This document shows, one piece after another, positions 17,254 through 20,044 of a stretch of DNA of 64,000 nucleotides (position 1 is its first letter; each line of letters begins with the position of its first letter). Below the pieces are notes generated by a model, which was given only the letters and a program-made list of their open reading frames with translations, had not been told where the DNA came from and did not search any database. The translations under genes and the position numbers were made by a program. Origin of the DNA: Solibacteraceae bacterium. Its GTDB lineage: Bacteria; Acidobacteriota; Terriglobia; Bryobacterales; Bryobacteraceae. Location of the stretch: positions 1 through 64,000 of the forward strand of contig JAJPJX010000057.1 in NCBI GenBank assembly GCA_021324015.1, given 5' to 3'.

Positions 17254-18414
17254 TCAGCGCGAGAAGTTGCGCACGAAGGTGTCAGGGGGCAGGCCCCTGG
17301 AGCGGGCCTGCCGCGCCACTTCCATCGCCTCCGGGCGCGTCATTCTCCCGCCCAGGGAGATGAAATAGGTCGTGGCATCCAGGGCGAAGACCTCCGGCCG
17401 GAGATCCGGCCACTTGCGTTGAATGCGGTGGATCTCCTTCTCGGCGTCGGTTCTCCGAGAGTACGTGTACGCGATGACCCTCCAGACCGCCGGCTCGGAG
17501 GAATGAATGGCCGCGGGAGGGGCGGGTGGTTGCTCCACGGCGGGTGCGGGAGGCGGCGTCCGGTCCGGCGCGGGCGCTGCCGCGCGCGCCACCGGCGCCA
17601 CCGGCGGCGCCTGCTGCGCCGGGCGGCTCAGCCAGGCGGCTATGGCTGCTACACCGGCGAGCGCCGCGCCGTATTTCCACCAGGTGCTCGTCCGGCGCCG
17701 CGATGGCGGCGGCAGCGGGGCGGGCGCGTCCCCGGGCGGGTCCAATGCCGCCGCAATCTGGCGCAGCGTCCAACGCCCTTCCCCGGGCTGTCGCAGGCAT
17801 CCACGAATGATTTCCTGAAAAGGCTGAGGGGCCGCGCGCAGGCCTTCCTCCCGCGGCTCCCGGCTTTGCATGAGAATCTCGTAGAGGCAGAGGCCCAACG
17901 ACCGGACGTCTTCCGCCGCCGCACCCGGCACGGCGCCCGCTTGGCGTAGTGCGCCGCTCGAAATCTTCACCACGTCCGCCACGGCCACGATGTCCCGCGC
18001 CTCGATGCCGCGAAGGGCCAAACCGCGTGCGTGCAGAAACGTGAGAGCATCCAGCACGGCGCGCAACACCTCGCCCGTCTCCTGCGCGCTCAGGGGCCGT
18101 TCGTGCAGCACACTGCCAAGATCTTCATCCGGAAGTTCCGCGACGGCGTAGGCCAGGGGTGTGCCCGCGGCCTCTGTGCGGCCCACTTCGAACACGCGCA
18201 CCACGTGCGGATGCGAGACCTGCGCCGCAGCTTTCCACTGCTCGAACCGCTCTTCACCGCCCGGCTCACCGGTCAGCGCGAGCGCGATGACAGCGGGCCG
18301 GCCGGCGAACCGCGTGCGGAACCGGGTAACCCCAGCGTCGCTCGCCAGGAGTTCCTCCAAGGTGTACTTCCCGGCGATTGGCGCTTCCGCCAATCGCGCC
18401 CACAAATCCGTCAT
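17254..18414 (-). CDS. Membrane pseudokinase with periplasmic SPOR domain
   Basis: 386 aa, unusual architecture. Residues 1-225 have the protein kinase fold (HPHVVRVFEVGRT, AVAELPDEDLGSVLH, EVLRAVLDALTFLHARGLAL, RSLGLCLYEIL). The catalytic residues are gone: no VAIK lysine (AVIALAL), HRD is LRG (134-136) and DFG is SSG (152-154), and no glycine-rich loop is visible. A single TM helix (about 246-264) and a Pro/Ala-rich linker lead to a SPOR-like domain (about 306-386, VWRVIAYTYSRRTDAEKEIHR, YFISLGGRMTRPEAMEVARQA), which in other proteins binds denuded glycan strands at the division site. It is divergent from bactofilin, so a role in cell shape or division is inferred. The start at 18414 is chosen; the frame upstream is not protein-like. 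Confidence 0.8.
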   Translation of the reverse strand: MTDLWARLAEAPIAGKYTLEELLASDAGVTRFRTRFAGRPAVIALALTGEPGGEERFEQWKAAAQVSHPHVVRVFEVGRTEAAGTPLAYAVAELPDEDLGSVLHERPLSAQETGEVLRAVLDALTFLHARGLALRGIEARDIVAVADVVKISSGALRQAGAVPGAAAEDVRSLGLCLYEILMQSREPREEGLRAAPQPFQEIIRGCLRQPGEGRWTLRQIAAALDPPGDAPAPLPPPSRRRTSTWWKYGAALAGVAAIAAWLSRPAQQAPPVAPVARAAAPAPDRTPPPAPAVEQPPAPPAAIHSSEPAVWRVIAYTYSRRTDAEKEIHRIQRKWPDLRPEVFALDATTYFISLGGRMTRPEAMEVARQARSRGLPPDTFVRNFSR

Positions 18415-18578
18415 CCCTGTGCCTCGTTCCCGGTGAGAGGTGCTGCTGCACGTTGGGGACCGCGCGCCGGCCGTTGATTCCCCAACCCTCTTCCGGCATG
18501 CGCGCAAAAATTACCAGCCGCGGCTGCGCAAAAGTTGCCCGCGCCGCGGCCAACTGGCTTGCTTTCATCACCTCTGAT

Positions 18579-18616
18579 CTGGTCATCCAGATGCATGCAA
18601 GCGGACACATGACCAG
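18579..18616. promoter_or_regulatory. Inverted repeat in the bactofilin leader region
   Basis: CTGGTCAT (18579-18586) and ATGACCAG (18609-18616), perfect 8-bp arms, 22-nt spacer. It ends 7 nt before the AGGAGG of the bactofilin gene, so it could be a leader hairpin or an operator for the divergent pair. Confidence 0.5.
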
Positions 18617-18633
18617 TTTCCCAGGAGGACGAT

Positions 18634-19131
18634 TTGTGGAATAAGCGCAGTTCCGAAGGGGGTCTTCTGGAAGAGACCCCGCGTGTGCAACCCGGACCAT
18701 CGTTCCAGCCCGCGCCAGTGCCCCCCAGGCCCGAGCCCGCGCCTGCCCGGACCGAACCCGTCCGCGAGGTGGCCGTGATCGGCGCGTCCATGAAGATTAC
18801 CGGCCAGATTTTCAGCGAGGAAGCCCTGCACGTGGATGGGGAGGTGGAGGGTACCCTGTCACTCGGCCACTCCCTCACGGTCGGCCAGAACGGTAAGATA
18901 CGCGCCAATATCAAGGCGCGCAATGTCACGATCTTCGGTTCCGTGAAGGGCAATGTGGAAGTAGCTGAAAAAATCGCCATTCGTGAAAAGGGCAGCCTGA
19001 TCGGAGATATCCGCACCGCCGGCATCATGATCGATGACGGCGCTTACTTCAAAGGCAGCATCGACATCATCCGTTCCGAGGGACCCAAGAACGGAGCCGC
19101 GCCTCAGGCCGCGGTCAAATCCCCGGCATAG
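18634..19131 (+). CDS. Bactofilin
   Basis: 165 aa. Core bactofilin (DUF583) right-handed beta-helix at about 48-150: IGASMKITGQIFSEEALHVD, GEVEGTLSLGHSLTVGQNG, VTIFGSVKGNVEVAEKIAI, REKGSLIGDIRTAGIMIDDG. Pro-rich N-terminal and short C-terminal tails flank it, as expected. Bactofilins polymerise without nucleotide and scaffold cell-wall enzymes. The start is TTG at 18634, supported by AGGAGG at 18623-18628. The gene is divergent from the pseudokinase-SPOR gene, which may mark a shared envelope function. Confidence 0.95.
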   Translation: MWNKRSSEGGLLEETPRVQPGPSFQPAPVPPRPEPAPARTEPVREVAVIGASMKITGQIFSEEALHVDGEVEGTLSLGHSLTVGQNGKIRANIKARNVTIFGSVKGNVEVAEKIAIREKGSLIGDIRTAGIMIDDGAYFKGSIDIIRSEGPKNGAAPQAAVKSPA

Positions 19132-19180: not shown

Positions 19181-20044
19181 ATGTACGCCACGAGATCCTT
19201 GCTTCTGGTCCTCCCGATCGCGGTTTGTGCCGCCGCTCCGGGCGCCGCCTCCAAGCCCGAGCAGTGCCGTCAAATGCTCGACCAGGCCTTGCAGGAGAAA
19301 AATCCGGATACGCGTAAACAGGCCGTCATCGCGCTGAGCCTGGCGGCCTCCACCGAACCTTTCCTCTCGCTGCTGGAATCCATGCTGCAGGACAAAGATG
19401 TAGAGGTTCGGCTCGCCGTAATTTCCAGCCTGGTGGATCTGCGCAGCCGGCGCACGCGGGCCGCCCTCGAAAAAGCCCAGCATGACGACGTTCCCGAAGT
19501 GAGTTTTGCCGCCACGAAGGCGCTCTGGGGGCTGCATGATCCGGCCGGCAAGCAGGCTCTGCTATCGATCCTCGCGGGAGATACCAAGGCTTCCTCCAGC
19601 TTTCTCACGGCGCACATGCGCGAGGGCCTGCGCATGATGCACACCCCCAAGACTTTGTTTCTTTTCGCCTTTGCGCAAGGCATCGGCTTCGTCCCGCTGC
19701 CGGGTCTGGGAGAAGGGATCTCCTCCATGCAGGGCCTGCTTGCCGACCCGGGTGTCTCGGGGCGCGCGACGGCCGCCTTGCTCCTCGGCCGCCAGAGGGA
19801 CCCGGAAACCACGACAGCTTTGCGGGACGCCCTCGGGGACAAAGACTGGTCCGTGCGTGCCGCTGCCATCCACTCCCTGGCGCTCCAAAACAACCCGGCG
19901 TTTCAAGCGGACTTCGCCTCACTCCTGGATGACAAGAAAGAAGCTGTGCGCCTCCGCGCCGCCTCCGGCTATCTGCGTCTCGAAGCGATCAAAAGCCGGT
20001 CCGCTCACAGATCCGGCAGACGCTCCGCCGCAGCCCGGAAGTAG
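19181..20044 (+). CDS. Secreted HEAT-repeat protein
   Basis: 287 aa with a signal peptide (RSLLLVLPIAVCAAAPGAAS). HEAT/PBS-lyase-like repeats follow: NPDTRKQAVIALSLAAS, DKDVEVRLAVISSLVDLRSR, DVPEVSFAATKALWGLHD, and near the C-terminus DKDWSVRAAAIHSLAL and KEAVRLRAASGYLRLEA. A hydrophobic segment at about 160-180 (TLFLFAFAQGIGFVPLPGLG) interrupts the repeats and may be a membrane or hydrophobic contact segment. Protein-protein scaffold; partner unknown. TAAAAT 8 nt before the ATG and no SD. Probably not co-transcribed with bactofilin (49-bp gap). Confidence 0.8.
   Translation: MYATRSLLLVLPIAVCAAAPGAASKPEQCRQMLDQALQEKNPDTRKQAVIALSLAASTEPFLSLLESMLQDKDVEVRLAVISSLVDLRSRRTRAALEKAQHDDVPEVSFAATKALWGLHDPAGKQALLSILAGDTKASSSFLTAHMREGLRMMHTPKTLFLFAFAQGIGFVPLPGLGEGISSMQGLLADPGVSGRATAALLLGRQRDPETTTALRDALGDKDWSVRAAAIHSLALQNNPAFQADFASLLDDKKEAVRLRAASGYLRLEAIKSRSAHRSGRRSAAARK

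Follow-up and report, generated by a model that had tools for sequence, protein, structure and literature searches.

A transmembrane pseudokinase with a SPOR domain and its recurrent gene pairing with a specialised bactofilin in Bryobacteraceae (Acidobacteriota)

Results

The present study concerns two divergently oriented genes of a Solibacteraceae bacterium (family Bryobacteraceae, phylum Acidobacteriota), one for a pseudokinase joined by a transmembrane (TM) helix to a SPOR domain and the other for a bactofilin. They lie in the window, i.e. the whole 64,000-nucleotide stretch of DNA analysed here (contig JAJPJX010000057.1, assembly GCA_021324015.1), which belongs to a genome of 8.2 Mb in 214 contigs. 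The features of the locus are collected in Table 1. The product of the pseudokinase gene has 386 amino acids (aa) when ATG 18414 is taken as the start, which is preferable to the upstream TTG of the earlier gene model (17254-18507).

The AlphaFold2 (AF2) model of this protein consists of a bilobal kinase fold, a single helix at residues 246-262 and a β-α-β-β-α-β arrangement at residues 311-383. Both kinase lobes were modelled with confidence (predicted local distance difference test, pLDDT, about 90-98 for the greater part of each), and the top Foldseek match of the whole model was PknB (1o6y, E 6.6e-13). In sequence searches, phmmer matched the protein to PknB at 2.6e-9 and the Pfam kinase match stayed below the threshold (22.1 bits vs 31.7). 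By alignment, the position of the β3 Lys is A44 (in VIALAL), that of HRD is L134-R135-G136 and that of DFG is S153-G154-A155, all three residues of an active Ser/Thr kinase thus being missing; the Asn of HRDxxxxN corresponds to D141. An earlier note, made from the letters of this DNA, had claimed an intact kinase fold without the Lys, the HRD Asp and the DFG Asp, and for the window protein the alignments, the AF2 model and Foldseek agree with it. In a 60-row alignment of relatives, neither the HRD Asp nor the DFG Asp was present in any member whose motifs were readable, close homologues included, and the αC Glu was not retained, although structural residues such as the αF Asp (D169) were retained across the family. 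The β3 Lys, however, remains as Lys or Arg in many relatives, also in close ones, so that only the loss of the two aspartates is family-wide. Because no readable relative has either aspartate, the family is pseudokinase throughout by its sequences, and the form in the window is among the more degraded members. An active kinase with canonical residues was rejected on the same count.

The C-terminal domain of 77 aa, modelled separately, reached a pLDDT of 94, and its top match in the PDB was the SPOR domain of CwlC (1x60; Foldseek probability 1.00, TM-score 0.70); the probability of the match to the SPOR domain of RlpA (6i09) was 0.92. Pfam SPOR matched 13 of 18 relatives (lowest E 1.2e-6) and gave no match to the window protein itself. 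The fold, together with the Pfam matches in relatives, rules out another domain type, a possibility that would have spoken against the earlier proposal of one TM helix joining the kinase fold to a periplasmic SPOR-like domain; this architecture is borne out by the AF2 helix and the SPOR fold.

The gene opposite the pseudokinase gene does encode a bactofilin, as the note had read it (PF04519, E 1.5e-25, residues 48-143). Its N-terminus, MWNKR, resembles the membrane-targeting consensus MFSKKKK (PMC12448750) and would fit a membrane-targeting peptide, so that membrane association and polymerisation are predicted for it by analogy.

Pairing of the two genes was found in other genomes. A profile search with the SPOR subfamily gave matches in 50 of 237 genomes of the same family; after two weak matches (G085 and G086), probably other SPOR proteins, were left out, 48 carriers remained. 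According to bactofilin positions and fetched loci, the pseudokinase-SPOR gene adjoins a bactofilin gene in 22 of these 48 genomes. The pairs are divergent in 18 genomes of 10 genera and tandem in 4 genomes of 2 genera, the bactofilin gene coming first in the latter and the open reading frames (ORFs) touching or overlapping. When neighbours within 6 kb were clustered, no gene other than bactofilin was shared by most paired loci. Chance pairing is ruled out, as the pairs recur in 12 genera and in two gene orders. Universal pairing was likewise rejected, since the genera coded g52, g9 and g23 and all examined Acidobacteriaceae loci are unpaired. In a phylum-wide set of 396 genomes, strong matches to the SPOR subfamily were nearly confined to one further family within the same class.

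In the bactofilin tree, a housekeeping clade (59 rows) stands apart from a clade, with 21 rows and support 98, that holds the divergent partners. None of the 59 housekeeping rows is directly paired with a pseudokinase gene, whereas 17 of the 21 rows of the other clade are. In a further row of the latter (G062, locus L197) the pseudokinase gene runs off the contig, and this locus is counted among the 18 divergent pairs; two others (G035 and G116) have no adjoining pseudokinase gene, and the last (G252, L175) has a decayed remnant of one. Paired bactofilins are set apart from the housekeeping clade by fixed, diagnostic residues (M53, A115, G120, S121, G130 and D134) and by the loss of charged residues at 115, 121 and 130. 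The bactofilins of the tandem pairs form a clade separate from the divergent partners, which suggests from the tree that the link between pseudokinase and bactofilin was made or kept twice.

In genome G252 (L175:940-1317, G252:C114), a decayed pseudokinase remnant adjoins an intact pair-type bactofilin gene, and an intact pseudokinase paralogue is present on another contig.

The intergenic region contains two elements that recur in relatives. Upstream of pair-type bactofilins is a -24/-12 element, exactly GG-N10-GC, in most cases about 55-62 bp from the start codon. Further upstream is a GTAA-N3-TTAC palindrome, which in most cases precedes the pseudokinase start by about 83-104 bp. As descriptive counts, with the other bactofilins as control, the σ54-like site was found in 16 of 21 pair-type regions (expected 0.24) and the palindrome in 18 of 21 (expected 0.23), and the numbers for other, mostly housekeeping bactofilins were 5 and 2 of 68, respectively. 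In some of the regions counted as misses, the site is looser or the start was wrongly chosen. The palindrome was absent from unpaired pseudokinase genes, in which no more than an isolated σ54-like match occurred. A gene for σ54 (rpoN) was present in all 18 genomes checked; with the GG-N10-GC element and rpoN in the genome, the window bactofilin gene has a σ54-dependent promoter as predicted from sequence, and its transcript would start at about 18605. Across the 237 genomes, the composite promoter pattern matched only 8 places, of which 6 lie at a pair-type bactofilin; a wider regulon was rejected, and the two remaining matches (G131 and G155) may be due to chance. The σ54-like promoter and the palindrome are conserved in, and specific to, the region between bactofilin and pseudokinase genes.

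The inverted repeat that the earlier note had placed in the bactofilin leader is present, with arms CTGGTCAT (18579-18586) and ATGACCAG (18609-18616), but relatives do not conserve it in their intergenic regions, and so it is no conserved leader element. Its RNA fold is weak as well (z = -1.1), and an RNA leader hairpin was rejected for these reasons. The left arm overlaps the σ54-like site and would stay untranscribed, because the σ54 start is predicted near 18605.

Related pseudokinases occur with another periplasmic domain. In a sister clade (tree support 99), a homologous pseudokinase, the TM helix and a Pro-rich linker are followed by a TonB C-terminal domain instead of SPOR (L083, L084 and L086-L089; Pfam TonB_C PF03544 in 6 of 6), and no bactofilin gene is adjacent. 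These proteins keep the β3 Lys, mostly in AAIK, and are without the HRD and DFG aspartates. They are apparently an undescribed pseudokinase-TonB fusion. Since TonB-C takes the place of SPOR in them, the pseudokinase module is a cytoplasmic unit to which different periplasmic heads are fitted.

As for other neighbours, an ECF-type (extracytoplasmic function) sigma factor-like gene was seen by eye near the pseudokinase gene in seven loci (L142, L143, L146, L161, L124, L154 and L155), four of which also have an anti-sigma-like gene. In the window, a gene for a HEAT-repeat protein lies immediately 3' of the bactofilin gene (19181-20044, + strand); it is not a recurrent neighbour among relatives.

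Table 1. Features of the pseudokinase-bactofilin locus (positions in the window)
Feature	Position	Strand	Basis or remark
Pseudokinase-TM-SPOR gene (386 aa, ATG at 18414)	17254..18414	-	ORF, Pfam, phmmer, AF2, Foldseek
SPOR domain, residues 310-386	17257..17487	-	Fold model, Foldseek, alignment, Pfam in relatives
Periplasmic linker, Pro/Ala-rich, disordered, residues 263-309	17488..17628	-	Low AF2 pLDDT
Single TM helix, residues 246-262	17629..17679	-	AF2 helix within hydrophobic stretch
Cytoplasmic pseudokinase domain, residues 1-225	17740..18414	-	Alignments, AF2, Foldseek PknB
GCAAAAATTAC, imperfect copy of the conserved GTAA-N3-TTAC palindrome	18504..18514	.	Comparison with relatives
GCAAAAGTTGC, second palindrome copy, imperfect	18528..18538	.	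Comparison with relatives
Inverted repeat of the earlier note, 8-bp arms	18579..18616	+	Probably incidental, not conserved
σ54-like -24/-12 promoter TGGTCATCCAGATGC (GG-N10-GC), directed at bactofilin	18580..18594	+	Kept in relatives; rpoN in genome
AGGAGG ribosome-binding site of bactofilin	18623..18628	+	Sequence
Bactofilin gene (TTG start, 165 aa), pair-associated clade	18634..19131	+	Pfam, tree, diagnostic residues

Discussion

Computation directly showed how the domains are arranged, that catalytic residues are gone, that the pairing recurs, that the paired bactofilins form a specialised clade and that intergenic elements are conserved; from gene context and analogy we infer that the two proteins may bind each other, that the SPOR domain may bind peptidoglycan, that information may pass from the wall to the cytoskeleton, and that the pair may have a role in morphogenesis or division. 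The explanation that we somewhat favour is that the pseudokinase-SPOR protein and the bactofilin form a dedicated transmembrane module, which couples a bactofilin polymer to the wall through a dead kinase serving as a dock. The specialised bactofilin paralogue would bind the membrane by its N-terminus and polymerise beneath the inner membrane, and the bitopic partner would dock on the polymer by its dead kinase domain, acting as a protein-binding platform. In the periplasm, the SPOR domain, on its flexible Pro-rich tether, would contact peptidoglycan of a particular form or search for it. In this way the cytoskeletal patch could be positioned according to the state of the wall, and growth or a change of shape would follow locally. 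Both genes would be controlled from the intergenic region that they share, in which a σ54-type promoter would serve the bactofilin gene and the palindrome would act as an operator or enhancer. A broader proposal, which we can make only tentatively, is that this is an undescribed morphogenesis module in which a dead kinase is the adaptor of a bactofilin, the SPOR and TonB-C heads are exchangeable and expression of the module's own bactofilin polymer is gated by σ54.

Physical contact, by which the pseudokinase would recruit a cytoskeletal scaffold, is well motivated by known bactofilin systems, and coupling of the cytoskeleton to the wall is plausible. BacA of H. neptunium and R. rubrum binds LmdC, an endopeptidase encoded by the adjacent gene, through the cytoplasmic part of that enzyme (PMC10945521), and BacA of C. 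crescentus, which bears an N-terminal membrane-targeting peptide of the MFSKKKK type, recruits PbpC (PMC12448750). As in these alphaproteobacterial systems, a bactofilin with a candidate membrane-targeting peptide is linked here to a bitopic protein whose periplasmic part is directed toward peptidoglycan, where its action on the wall would be expected; recurrent gene linkage of this kind, by which a bactofilin client may be recognised, was found in 22 of 48 genomes and in two gene orders. LmdC and PbpC, as described, are cell-wall enzymes with short cytoplasmic regions (PMC10945521, PMC12448750), whereas in the present protein the cytoplasmic part is a whole pseudokinase domain and the periplasmic part is SPOR only, with no M23 or PBP enzyme domain. 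The phylum is also different, the gene order is mostly divergent and the control is σ54-like. By analogy, the module would work like a bactofilin and its client, but, having no wall enzyme domain, it is neither LmdC nor PbpC. The membrane anchor, disordered linker and C-terminal SPOR domain are shared with FtsN, DamX, DedD and RlpA (PMC6895207), from which the window protein differs in its cytoplasmic pseudokinase, the absence of an enzymatic domain, the replacement of the glycan-contacting Gln by Ile/Val and the link to bactofilin. In our literature search, no bactofilin study in Acidobacteriota was found (co-mentions were off the subject by title), and the search for a pseudokinase with a SPOR domain gave only a review of Corynebacterineae division.

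Several points weigh against a dock that reads the wall. The case for contact between the proteins rests on gene context and analogy. More than half of the same-family carriers of the pseudokinase-SPOR gene have no adjacent bactofilin gene, and none was found at ten named, mostly Acidobacteriaceae loci (L068-L071, L073-L076, L078 and L079); pairing thus characterises only some members of the window's family and is not inherent in the pseudokinase-SPOR protein, which must be able to work otherwise. Furthermore, paired and unpaired pseudokinases differ at only seven pseudokinase positions, which form no clear patch, and a docking surface derived from these differences was rejected. The intergenic motifs were picked by eye in the very set in which they were counted. 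Finally, Q270 of the RlpA SPOR domain contacts denuded glycan (PMC6895207), and the corresponding position is Ile/Val in 19 of 19 aligned members, that of F274 being Tyr in all 19, as far as equivalences set by alignment with the CwlC sequence as a bridge can be trusted. The earlier idea that the protein senses denuded peptidoglycan is therefore slightly weakened, finding no support at the residue level. Many contacts of SPOR with glycan are, however, made by the main chain (PMC6895207), and so this domain may bind glycan all the same; from other SPOR domains, it would be expected to read peptidoglycan. The dead kinase, the recurrent pairing and the SPOR fold, each of which could have failed the earlier interpretation, have stood, and the inverted repeat as a leader element has not.

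One possible explanation without contact is that a regulated intergenic region is common to the two genes, which serve one physiological programme, for example a σ54 response, their products not binding each other. Most pairs are divergent with shared conserved elements, and unpaired pseudokinase genes occur in many genomes, as would be expected in this case. However, tandem pairs with other bactofilins keep the adjacency largely without these elements, and a dedicated bactofilin clade tracks the pseudokinase; we thus regard co-regulation alone as rather unlikely.

An alternative possibility is suggested by MviN of Mycobacterium (ActPs3 family), a membrane-bound pseudokinase in cell wall synthesis, which PknB phosphorylates and which recruits FhaA (PMC12599244). 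An active Ser/Thr kinase might phosphorylate the present pseudokinase or its tail, by which a regulator of wall synthesis would be recruited, the bactofilin being a downstream target and not the docking partner. The two proteins have in common a dead Ser/Thr-kinase fold on a membrane protein, the fold found here is PknB-like, and other kinase-like genes are numerous in the relatives. On the other hand, the recurrent neighbours included no recognisable FHA gene, phosphorylation of the pseudokinase is purely hypothetical here, and no SPOR domain or bactofilin link has been described for MviN (PMC12599244); the same review mentions neither Acidobacteriota nor TonB nor the cytoskeleton. We consider such a phospho-regulated scaffold improbable. 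It is very improbable that the kinase fold retains nucleotide binding or some unusual activity, which would make the protein a ligand-responsive sensor or atypical enzyme and not a passive dock: although many relatives still have the β3 Lys and several TonB-type ones have LKPxN, no readable member has the HRD or DFG Asp, the αC Glu has not been preserved and the window protein has lost the β3 Lys as well.

If the pseudokinase is a dock for bactofilin, its combination with an outer wall-reading domain would be a new way of telling a cytoskeletal polymer where a particular state of the wall is located, and a function would be assigned to an undescribed family of bacterial pseudokinases. The recurrent pairing makes the idea of coupling open to direct tests with the two proteins, and the pair may thus open up the biology of cell shape in Acidobacteriota.
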